Shown: piece after piece, positions 446 through 24,961 of the stretch
Numbering within the stretch: position 1 is the first letter of the stretch
How the letters are laid out: every line of letters begins with the position of its first letter
Source: Desulfobulbaceae bacterium
GTDB taxonomy: Bacteria; Desulfobacterota; Desulfobulbia; Desulfobulbales; SURF-16
DNA: 41,666 nt
Assembly (NCBI GenBank): GCA_002868945.1
Contig: PKTX01000024.1
Coordinates: 1 to 41,666, forward strand
Reading direction: 5' to 3'
Position numbers and translations under genes: made by a program
Notes under the pieces: generated by a model
Databases searched by the model: none
The model's input: only the letters and a program-made list of their open reading frames with translations
What the model was told of the DNA's origin: nothing

Positions 446-1657
446 CTATTCAAGCGAGCAGCACTGTCCTGTAGATTTATTTCTAACTAGCCTGTAATAA
501 CAGGGGGTCAATTTTCCTGACAGACCCCAGATTCCTCCACTTGGGCCTCCTCCCAAAGATGTACTTATTCCTTCATTGTTGGTTCCAACAGCACCACCAC
601 CTTCTAGACCCAACCCAGGAATAGGTGTACTAAATCCAGCTTCAACTCCTAGCATATTAACAGGGGGGTTCTTGCAAGATGGTCCATTTGCATCAAAAGC
701 TACTCCGCCGGAGCCACTGCCGCCAAATGCAACACCTAGGCATACTTTTACATAGGTCAATTTCCTGACCACATTTCCATCACAACAAGTAATAGTAAAA
801 GCACCTCCTCCAAGAATGAAATGGCCTTCACCACCAGCATAAGTGCCATTGTCTGTAAGAGGAGTATATGGACCCGTTAAAGGCCCTGAGCCATCAACAA
901 TACCGTCATAGACGTCGTCATAAGTGTCCAAGCCTAACGGGTCAATTTTATTGACTGGATCAGCCTCTGAGTAGAGGTAAAGGTTAATACCCCCTTCCAA
1001 CCCAATCGGATCAGGAGTCATATAGCGACCTGTGGCCGGATCATAATATCTGTGCCAGTTGTAATGCAGCCCCGTCTCTTCATCATAATATTGGCCCGGA
1101 AACCGCAGATTACTCTCCACAGCCTCAACTTCAACCGTGGCCCTGCCATAGGCATCATAGAGGGCGCTCCACACCACCGCCCCACTCTGATCAAGCAGCT
1201 TCTGCGGCGTGCCCAGATGATCATTAATGTACCAGTAGCGCTGGTTATTCTCCATCATAAAGAGTGGATCACTGCCCCAGGCAGCGCCGGGCCGATAGCC
1301 GTAGCTCTTGAGCTCCGTGCCATCCTCGCTAAACTCGGCCACCAGGCCGTTATCGGCGTAGAGATAGTAGGTGGTCACGCCCTTTACGGTCTTCAGCAGC
1401 CGGCGGCCATAGGGGTCATAGCCGTAGCTGCCCACCTCGGCGCCTGCCCTGGTCACCGCCTCTAAGCGGTTATCGATGCTATACCCAAAGGCATCGGTCA
1501 CCCCGGCCCTGGTGCGGCTGACCATATTGCCAACCACATCATAGTCGTAGCTGTCACCCCCACCGGCCAGCAGGGCATGAGGGGGGAACAATCTTGTTTT
1601 TTTGGGTGGAGCGAATTGGGCGAAAAAAGCGATAAAAATAAAAAAGCACCTAACCAT
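446..1657 (-). CDS. 5'-truncated RHS-repeat protein: core plus variable C-terminal tip
   Basis: About residues 35-135 carry YD/RHS repeats (motifs such as YGYDPYGRR and YLYADNGLVAEF). Residues 141-243 form the RHS-associated core (YWYINDHLGTPQKL, LRFPGQYYDEETGLHYNWHR, RYMTPDPIGLEGG, NKIDPLGL). The last ~160 residues after DPLGL are a different, Gly-rich and Cys-containing domain with no family I recognise. RHS proteins normally exceed 1000 residues, and the first ~30 residues here (hydrophobic, then Lys/Arg) do not look like RHS. The 5' part has therefore been lost, and the reading frame simply opens into the tRNA-Arg downstream spacer. No good ribosome binding site is seen. It is best read as an orphan tip left by recombination; it may be silent or may act as a donor cassette. 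The final domain would be the toxin in an intact system. The core half is GC-rich and the tip half AT-rich, a common sign of tip exchange. Confidence 0.75.
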   Translation of the reverse strand: MVRCFFIFIAFFAQFAPPKKTRLFPPHALLAGGGDSYDYDVVGNMVSRTRAGVTDAFGYSIDNRLEAVTRAGAEVGSYGYDPYGRRLLKTVKGVTTYYLYADNGLVAEFSEDGTELKSYGYRPGAAWGSDPLFMMENNQRYWYINDHLGTPQKLLDQSGAVVWSALYDAYGRATVEVEAVESNLRFPGQYYDEETGLHYNWHRYYDPATGRYMTPDPIGLEGGINLYLYSEADPVNKIDPLGLDTYDDVYDGIVDGSGPLTGPYTPLTDNGTYAGGEGHFILGGGAFTITCCDGNVVRKLTYVKVCLGVAFGGSGSGGVAFDANGPSCKNPPVNMLGVEAGFSTPIPGLGLEGGGAVGTNNEGISTSLGGGPSGGIWGLSGKLTPCYYRLVRNKSTGQCCSLE

Positions 1658-1673
1658 ATCTGGCTAAGTGCTT
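1633..1673 (-). terminator. terminator of tRNA-Arg
   Basis: On the minus strand, about 11 nt after the CCA end, an imperfect hairpin (AAGCAC...GTGCTT outer stem, loop near AGATAT) is followed by a T-rich run. The position fits a rho-independent terminator for the tRNA. Confidence 0.6.
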
Positions 1674-1683
1674 GTATTTTATT

Positions 1684-1758
1684 TGGTGCCCCCAGCAGGA
1701 ATCGAACCTGCGCACACGGATTAGGAATCCGATGCTCTATCCCCTGAGCTATGGGGGC
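1684..1758 (-). tRNA. tRNA-Arg (anticodon CCT)
   Basis: A full cloverleaf can be drawn. The acceptor stem is GCCCCCA/TGGGGGC with discriminator A and encoded CCA. The D stem is GCTC/GAGC. The anticodon stem TCGGA/TCCGT has a T-T mismatch at its top pair. The loop TTCCTAA carries anticodon CCT (reads AGG), and the T arm is GCAGG-TTCGAAT-CCTGC. The tRNA's 3' end faces the RHS fragment, the side on which integrative elements usually insert. Confidence 0.95.
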
Positions 1759-1944: not shown

Positions 1945-3189
1945 CTAATTGTACACCTCAATCCGGTCCTGGCAGTTAAGGTGCAGGCTTGTCATGAGGG
2001 TCAGGTATTCGCGAAGATGCCGGGTGAGCAGGAAGTTGTCATGGGCAAAGAGGCGGGCCCGCTCACCGATCTCCTTCATCTTTTCCGGATTATGGAGGAG
2101 GTAGCGAATACGCAAGGCCGCGCCCTCCGGCGTGTTGACCCGAAAACCGGTGTTGAAGTTGACCACCTGCAGGCGGATACCGCCGGTGTCGCCGCCGATG
2201 ACGGGCTTGCCCTTCCACATTGCCTCGGTAACGGTGAGGCCAAAGCCCTCCTTGATCGATTTCTGCAGGACAATATCGGCACCGCACTGCAGGGCATTGA
2301 TGGTGCGATGGGCATCCGGCGGCAGGAGCAGGACATGGATATCCGGGTCACCGTTACTGCTCTCCTCCACCTCCTTGAGCACCTGTTCGCCCTCCGGATC
2401 GTCGGTGGCGCCGCCGCCGGCCAATACCAGCTGCACAGAGGGCACAAATTGCTTGACCAGTTTAAAGGCCTGGATAACGCCCAGGGGGTCCTTGAAGCGA
2501 TCAAACCTGGAAATCTGGGCCAGTAGGGGGCGCTGGGCATCAATGTTGAAATCCGCCAGTACCGAGGCGACTTCTTCGGCCGGCAGGGCGATATTCTTGT
2601 CGCTTAACGGGTCAATGCTGGGCGGAATTATATATTGCGGATGGGGCAGGGATTGGGCGAACTGGGCCAAGGAAAAGATACTGGCATCATAGCCCCGGAC
2701 ATGCTGGCGTAGATATTTCCACACCGGCCGAAAGGGGTGGCTGGCATCAATGTGACAGCGCCATACCCACTTGCCGCGCCGGTCCGGACAATGGCCCAGC
2801 AGGGGCGCTGGTTGCGGGTCGTGGATAAAGACAAAGTCCGCCTCCGAGAGCTTGGCACCCATTTTTTCGGCATTCAGGCTGTTGGTCTGTTCATAGGCGT
2901 TAATCTGCGCCTGGGGGATGTTGATCCGGTTGCCCTGCAGGCCGTTATGCATGTTTTTGGTGCATTGATAAAAGAGGTCTTCCCCCTCAATGACCTCCCA
3001 GGAGGTGTCGATATCAAGCTCCTGCATCAGGGGGACCAGTTTTTCCAGGATCTCGGCCACGCCGCCGCCCACCCGCGTGGAGTTGACATGTATTATCTTC
3101 ATGCCGGCCAGGGGGCGTGCCAGCTGACGCAGGTGGTCCACCACCTCGGCCCCGGCAACCTCGGCATATGATTCCAGTAGGCTTGTCAT
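1945..3189 (-). CDS. treT: trehalose synthase, GT4 glycosyltransferase (TreT)
   Basis: The protein has 414 residues and is a GT-B retaining glycosyltransferase of family GT4. TreT makes trehalose from an NDP-glucose and glucose in the cytosol, and the reaction is reversible in some organisms. The N-terminal Rossmann half begins around KIIHVNSTRVGGGVAEIL, typical of TreT and related trehalose phosphorylases. It includes FVFIHDPQPAPLL and a WRCHIDASHP motif. The C-terminal half has ISRFDRFKDPLGVI for the nucleotide-sugar site and the E-x7-E element in KEGFGLTVTEAMWKGKPVIG. Length fits the family. I chose the ATG that overlaps the TGA of the upstream DUF5752 gene (TGATG), implying translational coupling; a GTG one codon earlier is possible. 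It is the last gene of the trehalose operon. I see no clear terminator in the 185 nt before the tRNA. Confidence 0.88.
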   Translation of the reverse strand: MTSLLESYAEVAGAEVVDHLRQLARPLAGMKIIHVNSTRVGGGVAEILEKLVPLMQELDIDTSWEVIEGEDLFYQCTKNMHNGLQGNRINIPQAQINAYEQTNSLNAEKMGAKLSEADFVFIHDPQPAPLLGHCPDRRGKWVWRCHIDASHPFRPVWKYLRQHVRGYDASIFSLAQFAQSLPHPQYIIPPSIDPLSDKNIALPAEEVASVLADFNIDAQRPLLAQISRFDRFKDPLGVIQAFKLVKQFVPSVQLVLAGGGATDDPEGEQVLKEVEESSNGDPDIHVLLLPPDAHRTINALQCGADIVLQKSIKEGFGLTVTEAMWKGKPVIGGDTGGIRLQVVNFNTGFRVNTPEGAALRIRYLLHNPEKMKEIGERARLFAHDNFLLTRHLREYLTLMTSLHLNCQDRIEVYN

Positions 3190-3881
3190 CACACTCCCTC
3201 CTTTTCGAAATAATCGTCAAAAATCTTGATTAACTGTTTTTTGATATTGCCCAGGGTGCCGAAGTAGATATCAATGGCAGCCAGTCGCCTGATCAGCTCT
3301 TGGTGCTGGGGGCCATGGCTGCTGAGCCAGAAGCTGAAGTCATCACCATGGTCATCCAGCCGGCGGCGGGCGTCGATAAAGTGGTAGAAAATACTGCCCG
3401 TGGCCAGCTCCGGCAGTATTTCGGCCAGCATTTCAGGGGATTGGGCCCTTTTCTTCGAGTCAAATATGACGATCTGCGAGCGGATAAACTCAAAACGATT
3501 GGAGGCGCGGGCCCAGGAGAGGTATTCCTCTTCATCGAGCCGTTCCTCGATGATCTCCAGCAGTTCCTGGCGCAGGTCCTCCAGCTCGACAAACCGGGTC
3601 GGATCAATAACGGCCAGACGTTCGGCCAGGGGCGCATCGTGCAGGGCATACCAGGCCCAGGCCGCAAAATCGTTGTTATACTCACGTTCCTCAAACCTGG
3701 GCTGCAGCAGCCCTCCCCAGAAATGGTAATAGATGCTGTCCAGACTGGTTGTGGTCAGGTTGTCGCGCAGCTCTCTGAGGTTAATGGCCCTGTTGCCGGT
3801 GGCAATGGCAATAAGGGCGCAATCCTTGATGGCAAACTCTTTTGCGGGGTGCTGATCTGCTTGCGGCTCTGCTTGGCTCAT
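3189..3881 (-). CDS. DUF5752-family protein of the trehalose operon
   Basis: This is a 230-residue, acidic, soluble protein with many aromatic residues and no signal or membrane segment. It resembles the DUF5752 family, which I know as a conserved companion of TreT-like glycosyltransferases in deltaproteobacteria; its biochemical role is not established. Recognisable stretches are FAIKDCALIAIATGNRA near the N-terminus, SIYYHFWGGLLQPRF and a second related SIFYHFIDARRR later on. The two YHF blocks suggest an internal duplication of about 110 residues each. The start is the ATG preceded by AAAGGAG at good spacing; the open frame continues upstream without a better start. Its stop overlaps the treT start, and it lies 64 nt after the MalQ/TreY fusion. 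A role as partner or regulator of TreT is inferred only from this linkage. Confidence 0.75.
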   Translation of the reverse strand: MSQAEPQADQHPAKEFAIKDCALIAIATGNRAINLRELRDNLTTTSLDSIYYHFWGGLLQPRFEEREYNNDFAAWAWYALHDAPLAERLAVIDPTRFVELEDLRQELLEIIEERLDEEEYLSWARASNRFEFIRSQIVIFDSKKRAQSPEMLAEILPELATGSIFYHFIDARRRLDDHGDDFSFWLSSHGPQHQELIRRLAAIDIYFGTLGNIKKQLIKIFDDYFEKEGV

Positions 3882-3945: not shown

Positions 3946-6900
3946 TTAAGATGGGGGTGTTGTTGTGGTGCCCTGCAACAGGGCCAGAGGCCAGGAGTGC
4001 AGGAGGCGAGCCACAGGCAGGGCAGGGCCCTTGTCGTCTTGCATCGGCTTGCCGGCTGCGCTTTGGGCAAATATTGTGTCAAACTCCATGCCGGCCAGTT
4101 GCGGGGGCAACGTGATCGTTGTGTCGTCCCAGACCTCAAGCCCCAGGGGCAGGGCCTGCCGACCGGCCAGCAGGGTCTGGCAGAACCTGGGCGCCACAAC
4201 TATGATGGCCCGGTTGTTTCTTTTTCTGGCAAAGGCGCAGATGTGGCGGGCCTTGCTGCCAATTACCTCCAGGGGGATATAGGTGCCGTGGCTGAAGGTT
4301 TCCGGCTGCCTGTTCCTGAGGTGCAGGGTCTGGGCAATGGTGTAGAGCTTGGCGCGGCCGTCGCTCAGATTGGCCAGCAGTTCCTGCTGCAGGTCATGCG
4401 GGGACGATTCGGCAGCGTTGATCCGTGCCAGCATGGCAAAGAGCATCTCTTGACGTTTTCGGAAATCAACCGGTCGCCTGTTATCCGGATCAACCAGGCA
4501 AAAACGCCAGATTTCATTGCCCTGATAAATGTCGGGAATGCCCGGCGCCGTCAGTTTCAGGAAGACCTGGGAAAGGGCATTGAGCATGCCGAACCAGGCA
4601 ATGGTCTGCTGCTGATCAACAAAATCGGTCATAAAGGGGGAAGTGGGCTCGGCCAGGACCTCGGCAATAAAACGTTGCAGGGCCTCTTCATACTCGGCGT
4701 CGGCGTCGATCCAGCTGGTATCCACCTTTGCCTCGCGACTGGCCTTGAGCATTGCCTCTTGCATACGGACTGTGAAGCGCTCACGCTCCTGCCGGTCCAT
4801 TTCATGGAGCGGCCAGGCGCCCAGGAGATTCTGGTAAAAGGCATACTCGTCCTGGGCAGATGGCGCCGGGCCACCTTCCAAGTGGCTCTTGAGGGATTCA
4901 TTTGCCCGGCGCCAGCTGGAGACCCTTTCCTGCCATTGCGGCGCCATTTCACTCAGGAGATTAATGCGGGCCCGCACATCCTCGTTGCGTTTGGAATCGT
5001 GGGTGGAGGTGGTGATCATGCTGTGGGGCCAGTGGTGCATGCGATCCTGATTGGTACGGTGAAAGGCGGCCATGGACAGGCCGAAACGTCTCGGTTCGCC
5101 GCCCACCTCGTTGAGGGACAGGAGTCGGTTGTAGCGGTAAAAGCTGGTGTCCTCCAGACCTTTGGCCATCACCGGCCCGGTGTATTGCTGGAATTTCATG
5201 ACAAAGTCGAGATGACGCTCTGCATCGACTTCTTTACCTCTGGTCTCCAGCAGTAGAACAGCGGTGATAAAATCCAGAACATCGGTGTCGTCCATCTGTC
5301 GGCTCTTTTTGGCCGCGGCTGCGGCCCAGTCGATATATCGGCGGTCATGCTTGCTGATCCGGCCGGAGGAAATATAGGTCCTGTAGACCGGGAAAAAACA
5401 GACAATTTCAATCAGACCGTCACGCAAGCGGTTAAAGGTGAAGTCCCTGGTGATCCGATCGCCCTGGGCCAGCCGATAGATCAGGCTGGCCAGAACGTTT
5501 AACTCGCCGGCCAGGGATGAGCGGATGATCTTTTTCTTGCTTTGGTAAACCAGTTCTTCAAAACCTGTTTCATCACCGGTGAAGTGTTGATAGGCGGCGC
5601 TGAGTTCTTCTTCGGCAGCGCTGTTGACAAACAGGCCATTGACCAGGTTGGCGAAATCATAACCGGTGGAGCCGCTCACCGGCCACTCCGGGCAAATATG
5701 CTCGAAATCGGCCAGGATTTTTTCCACCACCACATAGAGTCCGGGTGTGGTGGGCTCGGTGGGTTTTAACAGGCAGCTGTCATCTTCTGCCGGCGCCTCT
5801 CCGGAGGCGGCAGACTGGAGGCGGCAAAAGTAGTGGTGCGGGTCATAGAGACCGTCCGGATGATCAATGCGCAGACCGTCAAGCTTACCGGTATTAACCA
5901 GATCAAGGATGAGACCGTGGGTTTGCCGGAAAACCTCTGCCTCTTCCATACGCAGACCGGCCAGGTCGTTGATGTCGAAAAAACGGCGGTAATTGATTTC
6001 ATCCGCTGCCACGCGCCAATAGGCGAGACGGTACGATTGCTCCTCCAGCAGGTTGTGCAGCATATCAAAGCTGGCCGGCTCACCGGACACCCCGTTAAAA
6101 AGGATGAGGTTTTCCTCTATAAATTGCCGTACTTCCGGGATCTCGCGGCATAATCTGGCAAGCAGTCTCTTGTTCACCTCCTTGTGGCGCCGGCGGGTCT
6201 GCATCTTGTCGGAGGAGGTTTCCACGGCAGCGGGCAGGTAGGCAAAGGCCTCAATGAGGTTCTGCAACTCCTGGAAGCCATGATGCTCCGGGCCCAGGCG
6301 CTCCTCCAGGCGATGCAGGTCGTGACTGAGGACAAGGGGATAGGTTCTGGGGTCAATGGGAAAGATGTGGTCATAATAGGTGACGACAAAGGTGCCGGAG
6401 CTTTCCTGAAAGGAGAGGCTGAGCAGGCCTCCCTCAAGAACCTTGCCGTAATAATCGCCCAGAAAAGGGACCAGCAGGCGGTTGCTCAATTCAACCTGTT
6501 GCGGCTGCCAGTTGATATCGAAAAAATGGGCGTACCTGGAAGCCCGGCCATTTTCCAGAACATCCATCCACCAGTGGTTGTCGGAGCCGACGCCCATATG
6601 ATTGGGGACGATGTCAAGGATAAGGGCCATGTCGTGCTGTTCCAGGGCGGCGAGAAAAGCCTCAAAATCCTCGCGGTTGCCCAGCTCCGGATTGATGGCG
6701 GCGTGATTGATAATGTCATAGCCATGCGAGCTGCCGGGGCGGGCCGCCAGAATGGGAGAGATATAGCAATGGCTTATGCCCAGGCTGCTCAGGTAGGGGA
6801 TAATGGCGGTGGCCTGTTGAAAGGAAAAGCCCTTATGGAGTTGCAGGCGATAGAAGGAGCGCGGCACCTTGAAGTCGAACCTCTTGTGTGGATCAGGGCC

Positions 6901-9117
6901 CTTGGCTGAGGGTCTGACGCTGCCCTTGCCCCGTTCCTGGTAGAGGGCCTTGAACAGGGCGCTGCTCTCCTGGTTTCTGAAAATATCCTCAATGTCGAGG
7001 GGATAGGTTGTCTGCCAGAAGTCCTGCGCCGCCAGGGCGGGCGGCTCGGCCTGCTCTTCCATGCCGAGCAGGTCATTGATGGTGACAAGCAGGATTTGGG
7101 CGCGGCTTTTGGCCAACAGAAGCTGCAGGGCCATGATCAGGGCCTGATCCATGGAGGGGATGGCCGCCGGATCCAGGGGATGATGGTCGGACAGCAGGTT
7201 TGCATGTTCCAGGTTGATCAGAAAATGGGCACGGTTTGCCCCCCGGGCGATAATGGCCTTTTCCTTTTGGCTGTCATCGGCAAAAAGATGTTCGGCGGAT
7301 TTGACGGCAATATCATGGCCGTTCCAGAAGCCTTTTACGGTGAGAAGAAAGGGCGCTGAAGAGTAAAGCAGGCTCTGGGGCAAAATGGCGGTGCTATCGG
7401 GCCAGCCTTCCTGCTCGCCGCTTCCCTGGAAAAAAGAGTGGCTGGTAAATATTTTTCTCTCCCGCACTTTTTTCTGTTGAGCGGGTGGCAGCAGCTCCAG
7501 GGTATCGGCAATAACCAGGCAGCGGTTGCGATGGCTCTCCAGGGCGATAATACCGATAATGTCGGCAAAGGGCAGCTCGGCCCCGAGGGTTAGGTCTTTA
7601 TTGGCGGCGGCCAGATTGAAGTAGGTGGTCTGATAGTCGGCCAGCGATCTGATCAGCAGGGCGCCGCTGTAGCGCATGGCATGTTGGAGGCCGCGGATAA
7701 GGGGCTGGTAGCACAGTTGCCTGAGGCCGGGGCCGCAGAGGGGCGGCAGGCCTACAGCCGGGTCAATATCGGTGTCGCCATGGGGCTGTGGCGCCACCAC
7801 AGCCCCATGCAACTGCGCCTTCTGATAGTACCATGACTCAAAACCGTTGGCATGGCAGGTGTAGGGGAACTCACCGATCAGGCCCAGCTTGAGGCTCAGC
7901 TCCATGGAGCGCCGGCCAATGGTGGCCAGCTGCAGGTCGGCCTGCCACTGGACATAGTGATAATATTCGATCTCATGGCTGTGCTGCGCGGCAAAATCGG
8001 CTAGGGCCGGGGAGTCAAGATCCTGAAACTCGGCCGGCCAGCTGCGCCAGTCTGTCTCGCTGGATTGTTCGGCCGCCATTTTTTTGTAGAGGACGGCAAA
8101 GATGCCAAAGTGGCGCAGGGTGGCGCCGCCCCGTTTCTGGAAATCACGAAATTCGCTCCCCCTGGCTGTTTCCGGATTGAGATGATTGTTGGAAAAATGG
8201 TCCCAGAGCTTACCGAGAACCTCCGTCTTGATCTGACGGATGGCCTCATAGTCGATCTGCGCGGCATCCTTGAGCATGGCCAGCCGGGCCTGAAATTCGG
8301 CGTCATGATTGATTTCGTTGAGCAGGTTCCACTCCGAGAAGTCGGCCATGGCCTCAATGTCGATATACAGTTCGTTGAGCAGGGTTCGGCAGGAGGGACT
8401 GTATGGATTGGGCGGTCTCTGCGGCTCTGCCAGGCAGGCATGCAGCGGTGCGGTGTGCAGGGTGCCGGCGCCTGCCGCGGCACTGTGGTTGATGATTTTT
8501 AACAGGTCGGAGAAATCGCCAATCCCCCAATTGCTCCGCGAGCGTACGGCGTGCAGGTGGGCACTCAGGCCCCAGATGCGATTGTCGTTGTTGAGTCCGG
8601 GCGGTACATAGCAGTGGGGCGGGGTGACAATAAGCAGCAGTTCCCCCTGGGGCTCTGCGGTTTCCGGTTTATCTTTTCGTGTTACTCGCAGGTGATGATA
8701 GCCCCTGGCCAGTTCGATATCGAGGGCCAGCAGCAGGTGTAGAGGATCATCTCCATTGGTCGGAGCATGGGGCAACAGGTCGCTGGGGCTAAAGGTGCCC
8801 CGGTGTTCATGGCCCTGTTCTTCAGTCAGGGTCCAGACATAGTGTTGCCGGTCATCCCTGGCAAGGCGCAGTGGGATGCGCAGAGGTATTTCTTTTTCCT
8901 GCACAACCAGGACCGGTTCAACAAGGCGGCGGTCCTGCTTTTTTTCAAGATCGGCAAGAAGAGTCTCAGGCTCGGGTCGCGGTGGCACATCAGTTTGCTG
9001 TCGGCAACAGAGGGCGGCCAGAAAATCGGTCAAGACGGCAGCCTCCCTGTGCCGAAGGGCGCTGTCGTCCAGGCTGATACCGTAGTGGGCGGCTATCTTC
9101 TGCCAGGCGTTCTTCAC
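3946..9117 (-). CDS. treY: malto-oligosyltrehalose synthase (TreY) fused to an N-terminal, apparently inactive MalQ-like domain
   Basis: This is a 1723-residue fusion. Residues ~181-600 align with GH77 4-alpha-glucanotransferase (WGLSAHLHAVRSRSNWGIGD, NPYSPSCR, ALESHRNRCLVI). At the three places where MalQ has its catalytic Asp, Glu and Asp (RIDH, GEDLG and THDLPT contexts), this protein reads LIRS (R490), IADTL (D538) and APFLLT (F590), so the domain should not catalyse. Residues ~750-1700 are GH13 TreY, which isomerises the reducing-end linkage of malto-oligosaccharides to give maltooligosyltrehalose. Its catalytic residues are present: D1085 in GLRIDHPDGLYDP, E1132 in VVVEKIL and D1374 in STHDSKRNED. 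TreY alone is usually 700-950 residues. It starts with GTG, and GTGA overlaps the treZ stop, so the two are translationally coupled. The MalQ-like part may bind glucan or hold TreY in place (inference). Confidence 0.9.
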   Translation of the reverse strand: MKNAWQKIAAHYGISLDDSALRHREAAVLTDFLAALCCRQQTDVPPRPEPETLLADLEKKQDRRLVEPVLVVQEKEIPLRIPLRLARDDRQHYVWTLTEEQGHEHRGTFSPSDLLPHAPTNGDDPLHLLLALDIELARGYHHLRVTRKDKPETAEPQGELLLIVTPPHCYVPPGLNNDNRIWGLSAHLHAVRSRSNWGIGDFSDLLKIINHSAAAGAGTLHTAPLHACLAEPQRPPNPYSPSCRTLLNELYIDIEAMADFSEWNLLNEINHDAEFQARLAMLKDAAQIDYEAIRQIKTEVLGKLWDHFSNNHLNPETARGSEFRDFQKRGGATLRHFGIFAVLYKKMAAEQSSETDWRSWPAEFQDLDSPALADFAAQHSHEIEYYHYVQWQADLQLATIGRRSMELSLKLGLIGEFPYTCHANGFESWYYQKAQLHGAVVAPQPHGDTDIDPAVGLPPLCGPGLRQLCYQPLIRGLQHAMRYSGALLIRSLADYQTTYFNLAAANKDLTLGAELPFADIIGIIALESHRNRCLVIADTLELLPPAQQKKVRERKIFTSHSFFQGSGEQEGWPDSTAILPQSLLYSSAPFLLTVKGFWNGHDIAVKSAEHLFADDSQKEKAIIARGANRAHFLINLEHANLLSDHHPLDPAAIPSMDQALIMALQLLLAKSRAQILLVTINDLLGMEEQAEPPALAAQDFWQTTYPLDIEDIFRNQESSALFKALYQERGKGSVRPSAKGPDPHKRFDFKVPRSFYRLQLHKGFSFQQATAIIPYLSSLGISHCYISPILAARPGSSHGYDIINHAAINPELGNREDFEAFLAALEQHDMALILDIVPNHMGVGSDNHWWMDVLENGRASRYAHFFDINWQPQQVELSNRLLVPFLGDYYGKVLEGGLLSLSFQESSGTFVVTYYDHIFPIDPRTYPLVLSHDLHRLEERLGPEHHGFQELQNLIEAFAYLPAAVETSSDKMQTRRRHKEVNKRLLARLCREIPEVRQFIEENLILFNGVSGEPASFDMLHNLLEEQSYRLAYWRVAADEINYRRFFDINDLAGLRMEEAEVFRQTHGLILDLVNTGKLDGLRIDHPDGLYDPHHYFCRLQSAASGEAPAEDDSCLLKPTEPTTPGLYVVVEKILADFEHICPEWPVSGSTGYDFANLVNGLFVNSAAEEELSAAYQHFTGDETGFEELVYQSKKKIIRSSLAGELNVLASLIYRLAQGDRITRDFTFNRLRDGLIEIVCFFPVYRTYISSGRISKHDRRYIDWAAAAAKKSRQMDDTDVLDFITAVLLLETRGKEVDAERHLDFVMKFQQYTGPVMAKGLEDTSFYRYNRLLSLNEVGGEPRRFGLSMAAFHRTNQDRMHHWPHSMITTSTHDSKRNEDVRARINLLSEMAPQWQERVSSWRRANESLKSHLEGGPAPSAQDEYAFYQNLLGAWPLHEMDRQERERFTVRMQEAMLKASREAKVDTSWIDADAEYEEALQRFIAEVLAEPTSPFMTDFVDQQQTIAWFGMLNALSQVFLKLTAPGIPDIYQGNEIWRFCLVDPDNRRPVDFRKRQEMLFAMLARINAAESSPHDLQQELLANLSDGRAKLYTIAQTLHLRNRQPETFSHGTYIPLEVIGSKARHICAFARKRNNRAIIVVAPRFCQTLLAGRQALPLGLEVWDDTTITLPPQLAGMEFDTIFAQSAAGKPMQDDKGPALPVARLLHSWPLALLQGTTTTPPS

Positions 9118-11000
9118 GTTCCTGCACCCCCATTCTTCTCCACGAGCCAGATGATGCTCTTGGCCGGTATCTCTGTCGGGAGCCAGGTTGCAGCCGCCTC
9201 ACCACTCTCCCGATATATGACGGTGTGCGATGCATACGGGGCAGTGGCCGCGGCCTGCCCGGCAAAATTAAAAATCAGGGTGAGCCTCGCCTGGTCGGCC
9301 AGCGGCCACCAGGCCTGCAGGGTCTGCTCCGCCAAGACCGTAAAAGTCGCCTGCCCGTGGACGATGGTGCCGAGGCGAGGGACAATGTGACGGCGGCGCA
9401 GCTCCAGGAGTTTTTTGTAGAAAGAGAGAAAGGCATGGTTCTCTTCATTCCAGGCCTGTTGCCAGGCAAGCTTTGACTCTGAAAAGGTCGCAGCGGCATT
9501 CGGGTCAGGGATATTGCTGCGATTCTGCGGCGAGCTGAACTGGCTGAATTTGTCAAATTCCCTTCTGCGTCCCTCGGTGACCTGGGAGGCCAATGGTTCA
9601 CTGAAATTGCAGAAGAAGTAAAAAGGGGTGCGGGCCGCGAATTCCTCGCCCATAAAGAGCAGCGGCGGTGAAGGCGCCAGCAGGGTGAGGGCGATGACGA
9701 GTTTCAGGTCCGCCGGTTCACAGAGACTGATGAGCCTTTCACCCAAGGCCCGGTTGCCGATCTGATCATGATTCTGCAGGAAGTTGATAAAGGCCAGGGG
9801 CGGCAGGTGGGCGCTGGCCTGGCCGCGCCTCTCCCCGTCTCTATAGATCGATTTCTCGCCCTGGTAGGCAAAGCCCTCGGTGAGGCAGCGGCCGAGATGA
9901 TGAATGGAGTGGTCACTGTAATCAACGTAGTAGCCTTCATTCTCGCCGGTTAGCAGGGTGTGGCAGGCATGATGAAAATCATCGTTCCACTGGGCCGTGA
10001 AAAAGCGCGGCCTGCCCTCATTCTCCCGGCTCAGATAGCGGCTGATATTATCTTCATTCTCCAGAATGAGATGGATATGGCGCCCGGTCCCTGGTCCCTG
10101 CCGGACAGTGGCGGCGATTTCCTCAAGAATGTCGGGGTGACTCTGGTCAAAGATGGCGTGGACGGCATCCAGGCGCAGGCCGTCGACATGAAACTCCTCC
10201 AGCCAGTAGAGGACATTGGCAATATAAAAGTCGCGCACCGTACCACTGTGGTGCCCGGCAAAGTTGATGGCCGCCCCCCATGGCGTCTTGAATTTCTCCG
10301 TGAAAAAGGCGTCTCTGGCATAGGCGTACAGGTAATTGCCCTCCGGGCCGAAATGATTATAGACCACATCAAGAAAAACCATGAGGCCGCGCCCATGGGC
10401 GGCATCGATCAACTCCTTGAGTTCGCTTGGCGTGCCGTACTGATTGGCGGGGGCAAAGAGGAGCGCCCCGTCGTAGCCCCAGTTGAAGCGACCGGGGAAT
10501 TGACAGATAGGCATCAGTTCAAGGGCGGTGACGCCCAGTTCCACGAGATGGTCCAGGCGTTTGCCAAGGCCGGTAAAGGTGCCGGCCGCAGAAAAGGTCC
10601 CCACATGCGCCTCATAGATGACCGCCTCCGGCCAGGGTCGGCCCTGCCAGGCCTCATCATGCCAGCAAAATTCGTCGGGATCGCAGATGACGCTGGGGCC
10701 GTGAATATCGTCGGCCTGATAGCGGCTGGCCGGATCAGGCACATGTAACTCTTGGTCAATAATAAAGTGATAGAGATCGCCGGCGGCGGCGGTCTGGTGA
10801 TGGAGGCTGAACCAGCCCCCTGCCAGGCGTGACATGGCAACGATCTGGTGCCGGTTGTCTGATGTGAGGTGCAGGTTGAGGTCGACTCGGCGGGCGGCAG
10901 GGGCCCACAGACGAAAAAGGGTGCCACCGTCAGGCTGGAGAGAGGCGCCGAATTGCTGAGGCGAAACTGGGGCGGTGCTGTTGTGCGGAGACAGGGCCAT
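9114..11000 (-). CDS. treZ: malto-oligosyltrehalose trehalohydrolase (TreZ)
   Basis: The protein has 628 residues and is GH13. It releases free trehalose from the maltooligosyltrehalose made by TreY. The N-terminal ~115 residues form the CBM48/E-set domain (GTLFRLWAPAARRVDL). The barrel follows with VIYEAHVGTFSAAGTFTGL, FNWGYDGALLFAP, VFLDVVYNHFGPEGNYL, the nucleophile in HVDGLRLDAVHAI (D278), the acid/base in LILENEDN (E314 by position) and the third carboxylate in FLQNHDQIGNRA (D412). The family often has an AE-D/S motif at the acid/base site, so ENEDN is a small variation. The start ATG has an AGAGGA stretch about 8 nt upstream. It is the first gene of the operon and overlaps the TreY fusion by 4 nt, which fits the two enzymes acting in sequence on glycogen-derived chains. 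Confidence 0.93.
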   Translation of the reverse strand: MALSPHNSTAPVSPQQFGASLQPDGGTLFRLWAPAARRVDLNLHLTSDNRHQIVAMSRLAGGWFSLHHQTAAAGDLYHFIIDQELHVPDPASRYQADDIHGPSVICDPDEFCWHDEAWQGRPWPEAVIYEAHVGTFSAAGTFTGLGKRLDHLVELGVTALELMPICQFPGRFNWGYDGALLFAPANQYGTPSELKELIDAAHGRGLMVFLDVVYNHFGPEGNYLYAYARDAFFTEKFKTPWGAAINFAGHHSGTVRDFYIANVLYWLEEFHVDGLRLDAVHAIFDQSHPDILEEIAATVRQGPGTGRHIHLILENEDNISRYLSRENEGRPRFFTAQWNDDFHHACHTLLTGENEGYYVDYSDHSIHHLGRCLTEGFAYQGEKSIYRDGERRGQASAHLPPLAFINFLQNHDQIGNRALGERLISLCEPADLKLVIALTLLAPSPPLLFMGEEFAARTPFYFFCNFSEPLASQVTEGRRREFDKFSQFSSPQNRSNIPDPNAAATFSESKLAWQQAWNEENHAFLSFYKKLLELRRRHIVPRLGTIVHGQATFTVLAEQTLQAWWPLADQARLTLIFNFAGQAAATAPYASHTVIYRESGEAAATWLPTEIPAKSIIWLVEKNGGAGT

Positions 11001-22795: not shown

Positions 22796-24961
22796 TTACT
22801 GTCGTTTTGCCTCCAGCACCCCGTTTTTCTGCCGAATACGTTGCAGCACGGTGGAGAGGTGGTCCAGACTGTTTACCTCTATGATCAGGTTGAGGTGGGC
22901 TATCTGGTCCTTTGAGGAGTGGGCGTCAATGGTGACGATGTTGGCGTCGGTATCACTGAGCAGATTGCACAGTTCTGCCAGGAGACCCTTGTGGTCCTGG
23001 GCAATAACATGGATTTGGGCCCGGTGGTTGGCTTTGGTGTCGTTCCAGCGCACCTTGAGCCAGCGTTGCGGGTCGGTGTTGAGCAGGTTGGGACAGGTGG
23101 CCTTGTGGACCGAGATGCCGCGGCCGGCCGTGATAAAGCCCATGATCTCCTCACCTGGCATGGGCATGCAGCACTGACTGATGCGGACCATCATGTCGGA
23201 AATGCCGTCAATGGTAATGGCATCATCTGTGTCACGACTGGGCGGCGGGCTGGCGGCCAGTCCCGGCAGCCGTTGTTCATTCTCCTGCCCCTCATCTTTT
23301 TCAGGGAAAAGCAGTTTGATGATCTGTTGAATGGTGATCTGGCCGGAGCCGACCCGGATCAAGAGCTCCCGCAGGGCATTGCAGTGCAATTTCTTGAGGA
23401 TCCACTTGAGCTCGCCTCCTTTTACCAGCTTTTTCAGGGAGAGGGCATGTTTCTTCAACTCTCTGTCGCAGATCTCCTCGCCGAGACGCAGGGATTTCGT
23501 CTGCTCCTCCTGCCGCAACCAGTGCCGTACCCGGCTCCGGGCCCGTCCTGTTTTTACCAGGTTGAGCCACCCCTGATGGGGGTGTTGGTTCTGGTTGGTG
23601 ATGATCTCCACGGCGTCGCCGTTTTTGAGTTCGGTCTTCAGGGAGACCATGGTGCCGTTGATGCGAGCGCCGGTGCAGTGGTTGCCCACCTCGGTGTGGA
23701 TTGCATAGGCAAAATCCAGCGGCGTGGCGCCGGCCGGCAATTCTTTGACCTCTCCGTTCGGGGTCAGAACATAGATCTTTTTGGCCTGGGAGAGCTCGTT
23801 TTTTACCGTGTCGAGAAACTCCTTGGGATCCTTGAGCTCCTGAAGCCACTGGACCAGTTGCTTGAGCCACTGAAAGGTGGTGGCGTCCTGTTCGGAGATC
23901 TTGGCGCCTTCCTTATAGGCCCAGTGCGCCGCAATGCCCTCCTTGGCAACCCTGTCCATGTCCTCGGTGCGGATCTGGATCTCCATGAACTCGCCTGAGG
24001 GGCCGATCACCGAGGTGTGCAGGGACTGATACATGTTTTCCTTGGGTTGGGAAATGTAGTCCTTGATGCGATGATCAATGGGGGGCCAGAGGGCATGCAC
24101 CATGCCCAGGGCCTGATAGCATTCACGCACCGTCTTCAGGATGATACGAAAGGCCACCTTGTCATAGACCTTGTCCAGGGTGATCTTCTGGACCAGGAGC
24201 TTGCGATAGATGGAAAAGAGGTGCTTGGGGCGGCCGAGGATGACAAAATCGCTGATGCCGTGTTCAATGAGTTTTTCAGAGAGCAGCTCCTTGATGTCCG
24301 CCACATATTTTTCGCGATCCCCCAGGGAAGAGACGATCATTTGGTCGAGCTTGTTGTACTCCTCCGGATGCAGAACAGAGAAGGCGCGGTCCTCAAGCTC
24401 CCGCTTCATCCAGTCGATCCCCAGGCGGCTGGCCAGAGGGGCATAAAGCTCAAGGGTTTCCTGGGCAAACTCCACCTGCTGATCAACCGGAAAATCGAGG
24501 ATCTGCATATCGTTGAGGCGGTCAGCCAGTTTAACCAGCAGAACGCGAATGTCGGTGGCCATGGCCAGCAGCATCTTGCGGATGTTCTACGCCTGGTAGT
24601 CGATCTTGGAGTTGTACTGAACCTCTGATATCTTGGTGGCGCCGCTGACAATATGGGCGACATCCTTGCCGAATTTTTTACGGATGGCCTCTTCGGCAAC
24701 ACCGGTGTCGGGATCCTTGAGGATGCCGTGGAAGAGGCCGGCGACGATGGTGTCCACATCAAGGCGCATGGAGGCCAGAATCTGGGCCACGGACAGGGCA
24801 TGGGTGATGTAGGGATCGCCATTGGGGCGGAAATGCCCCTCATGCGCCTTGGCCGCAAAGGCATAGGCCTCCTCTATGATGGGCAGTTGCTGCTGGGGGA
24901 GATAGCCGGCGGCCCGATTGAGGAGGTCGTCAATGGTGATGTGGTGTTCCAGATGAGCCAT
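22796..24961 (-). pseudogene. relA: RelA/SpoT-family (p)ppGpp synthetase interrupted by an in-frame TAG
   Basis: The 722-codon frame is continuous except for one amber codon at 24587-24589, codon 125. Family members read QAENIRKMLLAM across this point, so a Glu (GAG) or Gln (CAG) codon has become TAG. Both halves are otherwise well kept. The N-terminal HD domain has its first His in YITHALSV, but FHGILKD replaces HDxxED and LADRLND replaces LADRLHN, so the hydrolase should be inactive. The synthetase domain (about 239-350) is intact, with GRPKHLFSIYRK, KDYISQPKENMYQSLHT and EIQIRT. TGS (about 396-460) and ACT (about 645-720) domains follow. The second half could start at ATG 24574 but has no ribosome binding site. 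The upstream gene is proS, 49 nt away. A sequencing error, a true nonsense mutation or readthrough are all possible. Confidence 0.85.

Follow-up and report, generated by a model that had tools for sequence, protein, structure and literature searches.

Architecture of the MalQ–TreY fusion

The window, a 41,666-nucleotide stretch of a Desulfobulbaceae bacterium genome, contains a gene that fuses an amylomaltase-like (MalQ, GH77) domain to maltooligosyl trehalose synthase (TreY). Is the MalQ-like half still a glucanotransferase, and if not, why is it kept? A preliminary description of window positions 7320–8577, which correspond to residues 600–181 of the 1723-residue open reading frame, had claimed that the catalytic Asp, Glu and Asp of MalQ are replaced while the TreY residues are intact. 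The relevant features are as follows.

3946–9117, minus strand: MalQ-like/TreY fusion gene, 1723 amino acids, GTG start; PRK14507 match over residues 6–1717, 1753 bits (cut-off 2148)
8620–8919, minus strand: MalQ_N beta-sandwich domain, residues 67–166 (Pfam PF21226, 38.2 bits)
7003–8559, minus strand: GH77 (MalQ) domain, residues 187–705, with 7 of 7 hallmark active-site residues replaced (Pfam PF02446, 153.2 bits, cut-off 25)
7753–7794, minus strand: degraded amylomaltase gate, residues 442–455 (E. coli GAPPD...GQ.W), from MAFFT and profile-profile alignments
7648–7650, minus strand: R490 in the nucleophile position (Asp, D448 in E. coli), from pairwise, MAFFT and profile-profile alignments
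7504–7506, minus strand: D538 in the acid/base position (Glu, E496 in E. coli), same three alignments
7348–7350, minus strand: F590 in the position of the transition-state stabiliser (Asp, D548 in E. coli), same three alignments
3976–6861, minus strand: TreY (maltooligosyl trehalose synthase) domain, residues 753–1714, triad intact (NCBIfam TIGR02401, 992.7 bits, cut-off 498.65)
9114–11000, minus strand: treZ (malto-oligosyltrehalose trehalohydrolase), directly upstream of the fusion (TIGR02402, 682.4 bits, cut-off 538.8)
3219–3842, minus strand: DUF5752 domain, in the product of the gene immediately downstream of the fusion (PF19027, 275.6 bits)
1945–3192, minus strand: treT-like trehalose synthase, GT4 (PF21269, 189.4 bits)

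The gene order is treZ, fusion, DUF5752, treT, and the start of the fusion gene shares 4 bases with the end of treZ. The best NCBIfam match of the treT-like gene is TreT_Thcocales (385.5 bits), under its cut-off of 775. NCBI already lists the MalQ–TreY architecture as PRK14507/NF011077, annotated malto-oligosyltrehalose synthase. The window protein has the same domain order over its full length (residues 6–1717 on model positions 9–1691 of 1693) with TreY intact, but it misses the PRK14507 cut-off of 2148 at 1753.4 bits, whereas the members above the cut-off that were read have a full GH77 active site.

The TreY half passes its family model, and its GH13 Asp/Glu/Asp triad (D1085, E1132 and D1374) is intact when aligned to the solved synthases 5zcr and 6lcv, as the preliminary description had it. 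The triad motifs are alike in all 26 fusions aligned.

The GH77 active site is replaced

The whole N-terminal 732 residues are homologous to E. coli MalQ (GH77; 4s3p, 4s3q and 4s3r). Profile-profile alignment with hhalign gave a probability of 100 and an E-value of 1.3e-133 over 687 columns, with no gaps at the three catalytic sites. Pairwise alignment to the solved E. coli MalQ (4s3p) matched D448, E496 and D548 with R490, D538 and F590, and MAFFT alignments with about 50 homologues give the same assignment. The residues named in the preliminary description are thus confirmed by three kinds of alignment, and none places an intact Asp/Glu/Asp in the GH77 site.

The loss extends beyond the triad. 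Seven hallmark positions were chosen from knowledge of GH77 and then verified in the alignment. All are replaced in the window protein (Y151→H189, D374→E416, R446→L488, D448→R490, E496→D538, H547→P589 and D548→F590), so that the intact Y-D-R-D-E-H-D reads H-E-L-R-D-P-F. Also replaced are the gate (G400...W413), H449, and the conserved N648 and N658; the gate has been termed a defining feature of the amylomaltases (PMC4705983). All seven hallmarks are present in 12 intact fusions, and the stand-alone long MalQs (n = 30) have at least six with the triad always present, the single exception being an Ala for the Tyr. The five other fusion proteins of the window's subclade have none of the seven and no stops (MalQ part 44–49% identical). 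The scaffold fared differently from the cleft. Of the 71 positions that intact MalQs conserve, degenerate Desulfobulbales proteins keep about half, chiefly glycines and tryptophans of the scaffold and helix positions; the scaffold is kept in subclades A–D and the cleft positions are lost. A structure of residues 1–749 predicted from four sequences had a mean pLDDT of 50.3 and a pTM of 0.38, values too low for contacts with TreY to be read from it.

Sequencing or assembly error and chance were rejected as the source of the lost site, the pattern being common to many genomes and free of stops. The window domain is a GH77 homologue by PF02446 and hhalign that differs from E. coli MalQ in having none of the hallmarks, no gate and a TreY partner. 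On sequence grounds, these data support the view that it cannot be a classical GH77 4-alpha-glucanotransferase, and the earlier warning against a plain annotation as such appears justified.

Distribution of intact and degenerate fusions

Screening of 243 genomes from the order Desulfobulbales yielded 18 fusions, one of them split over two contigs, and a later family search added one to give 19. Three are intact and 16 have lost catalytic residues or have wrecked motifs, so the window gene is not an isolated oddity. At the triad positions, subclade A, which includes the window, reads R/G/N-D-F, with R-D-Y in the broken copy of genome G086. Subclade B reads C/N/S-E-E/D and subclade C reads N-E-E. 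Subclade D has the letters D-E-D, yet its motifs are ruined and the His is lost. A distant degenerate pair reads D-R-D and D-R-G. Because the lost residues differ between subclades, the triad was not lost in one step. The G086 copy was considered as a solo TreY and rejected as such, since it is very probably a fusion split across two contig ends.

Eleven full-length fusions from 398 Pseudomonadota genomes appear intact. In the same phylum, L125 reads D-T-D, lacks the His and aligns only to E. coli residue 552 without the GH77 segment that follows; the related partial protein L090 has NYD in place of THD. A search around this lineage found no further members. None of the 30 stand-alone long MalQs is degenerate, and the accompanying Fisher test gave P = 8e-7, a descriptive value only, as it ignores relatedness. 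A plasmid search found no close relative; every match was below 60% identity.

Phylogeny and the number of losses

In the TreY-domain tree, 14 of the 16 degenerate fusions of the order form a single starred clade that is sister to the intact fusions L017–L019. L125 and L090 group with the intact L086, which makes their loss a separate one. The same subclades, and again the L086–L125 pair, come out in the MalQ tree. L024 falls outside the main degenerate clade in the TreY tree and adjoins it, on a long branch, in the MalQ tree; the two trees thus disagree on the L024/L142 lineage, and the L024 loss may be a third. Catalytic loss has occurred more than once, with at least one further loss in the Pseudomonadota.

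Selection on the degenerate domain

Substitution rates were estimated by simple pairwise Nei–Gojobori counts, and several pairs are near saturation, where the ratios alone are trustworthy. The GH77/TreY dN ratio is 0.47–0.92 in intact fusions (seven pairs) and 1.32–1.95 in degenerate fusions (six pairs). The omega of the degenerate GH77 domain is 0.20–0.32, with 0.26 and 0.23 in two unsaturated low-dS pairs; omega below 1 is compatible with any retained function and does not indicate which. Catalysis has been freed from constraint, and the domain itself is still constrained. Faster change of GH77 under continued purifying selection (omega 0.2–0.3) points to a maintained pseudoenzyme domain, that is, a homologous domain apparently kept under selection without its catalytic residues.

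Other GH77 genes and genomic surroundings

The genome of the window has a separate, intact type I MalQ elsewhere with D, E and D in place. A second genomic MalQ was considered as a sufficient cause of the loss and rejected: redundancy alone is insufficient because two genomes with intact fusions, G020 and G021, also carry a separate MalQ-like GH77. In the sister operons of G124 and G167, another GH77 gene lies between glgB and treZ; in the G167 copy, LDH, HD and GAPPS...GQ.W gate motifs can be made out by reading. In two close relatives the trehalose operon has, between glgB and treZ, a second, divergent GH77 gene for 668–685 amino acids (L111 2854–4908, L112 14553–16556). G651 and G774 have long open reading frames with a C-terminal MalQ, of the size found in GlgX–MalQ fusions.

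DUF5752 and TreT are encoded near ten degenerate fusions including the window's, DUF5752 alone precedes a contig end in one more, and three lack the pair. Both genes are missing beside the two intact Desulfobulbales fusions whose surroundings were read; their neighbours are TreZ and GlgB, and one also has a TreS–maltokinase protein. The link to the fusion is not exclusive, as the DUF5752–TreT pair is also found beside a solo TreY (L128). Genome G017 has two trehalose clusters with DUF5752 and TreT, one holding a degenerate fusion and the other a solo TreY (L117, L128). The DUF5752 gene pairs with treT at window positions 1945–3842 (minus strand) and in about ten relatives' trehalose loci; no mention of DUF5752 was found in the literature searched.

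Elsewhere in the window (446–1758, minus strand), an RHS-core fragment and treT are separated by a tRNA-Arg (CCT). A RelA/SpoT homologue (22796–24960, minus strand) is interrupted by one in-frame TAG at 24587–24589 (KIDYQA*NIRKML) that separates the HD domain, whose motif appears altered (LFHGILKD), from the synthetase part. Pyrrolysine read-through is unlikely because no pyrrolysyl-tRNA synthetase scored over the cut-off in the window's own genome; the gene may be a pseudogene or contain a sequencing error.

Role of the retained domain

The domain is probably a GH77 pseudoenzyme derived from a complete, TreY-fused MalQ, its scaffold kept as a non-catalytic structural, assembly or regulatory module of TreY and its MalQ activity supplied in trans. 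The ancestor would have had a catalytically complete MalQ already fused to TreY that re-extended the short maltodextrins left by TreY and TreZ. Amylomaltase catalysis would then have been lost, with the (beta/alpha)8 scaffold and N-terminal sandwich held by purifying selection. TreY and TreZ would still make trehalose from maltodextrin ends, and a separate stand-alone MalQ would have taken over the disproportionation of short maltodextrins. The dead domain may stabilise or oligomerise TreY, dock a partner such as TreZ, or relay a regulatory signal. Of these proposals, the structural one is the least specific. We infer the absence of activity, the compensation in trans and the structural or regulatory role from sequence comparison.

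The preliminary description had proposed a glucan-binding or scaffolding part that feeds chains to TreY. Retention of the domain is borne out by its omega, but glucan feeding is not our first choice. A carbohydrate-binding-like module that keeps the ends of maltodextrin or glycogen close to TreY would suit a domain whose ancestor bound maltodextrins and a partner that works on maltodextrin ends, and there is precedent in noncatalytic amylase-clan subunits such as plant ISA2, which persist and are proposed to act via glucan binding (PMC12510319). However, the –1 platform Tyr (Y151→H189), the gate, H449, H547, N648 and N658 are replaced, and most sugar contacts have been lost in the other subclades too, by different routes. 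Since the sugar-binding gate and platform residues have gone with the triad, a structural, assembly or regulatory role would seem likelier than MalQ-like glucan feeding, and the glucan-binding module is unlikely. Glucan may still bind to a different face of the domain, or a different ligand may bind.

The replaced residues could instead mark a rebuilt site, at least in the window's subclade, that forms a new pocket for another ligand (a regulator or metal) or a new activity. Among the 27 lost positions, 12 are fixed to one new residue across six divergent subclade A proteins (H189, H221, N237, E416, P453, V455, S491, D538, P589, F590, E691 and F700), which exceeds the fixation at other diverged columns (22%; hypergeometric P = 0.004, with columns and sequences treated as independent). 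The more distant G086 retains H189, N237, E416, P453, D538 and P589. It differs at N221, I455, E491 and Y590, the fixed residues are absent from subclades B–D, and core repacking alone could account for part of the fixation. We regard a rebuilt site as slightly less probable again than glucan binding, and give the same low weight to its fuller form, in which the barrel site of the window's subclade is a metabolite or metal sensor that controls TreY while the domain died independently elsewhere and found other non-catalytic uses.

A functionless passenger decaying toward deletion would explain why the catalytic residues vary among subclades, why GH77 changes faster than TreY and why the GH77 segment of L125 is missing beyond E. 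coli residue 552. It is improbable given an omega of 0.2–0.3 and a domain that stays near full length without stops throughout the main degenerate clade, where MalQ identity between subclades falls to 31–38%. Residual transferase or hydrolase activity through other residues is very improbable: subclade A has a carboxylate, D538, in the acid/base position, and D, E and D are present in subclade D, but the window protein has Arg, Phe and Pro for the nucleophile, stabiliser and His and has lost the gate.

The pseudoenzyme reading has a parallel in ISA2, a noncatalytic GH13 paralogue likewise retained as an alpha-glucan enzyme without a working site beside an active partner (PMC12510319). ISA2 is a separate debranching subunit, whereas the window domain is a GH77 protein covalently fused to the isomerase of another reaction. 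The literature searched describes the TreY–TreZ pathway, the GH77 mechanism and noncatalytic amylase-clan proteins, and holds no description of a dead GH77 or of decay of the MalQ–TreY fusion, which is weak evidence as most subscription journals lie outside it. Automatic bifunctional-glucanotransferase names overstate the function of such proteins. As far as that literature goes, this domain would be the first described GH77 pseudoenzyme, and related bacteria carry the fusion in both active and dead form, which allows a direct comparison to learn the non-catalytic role of the fused domain.
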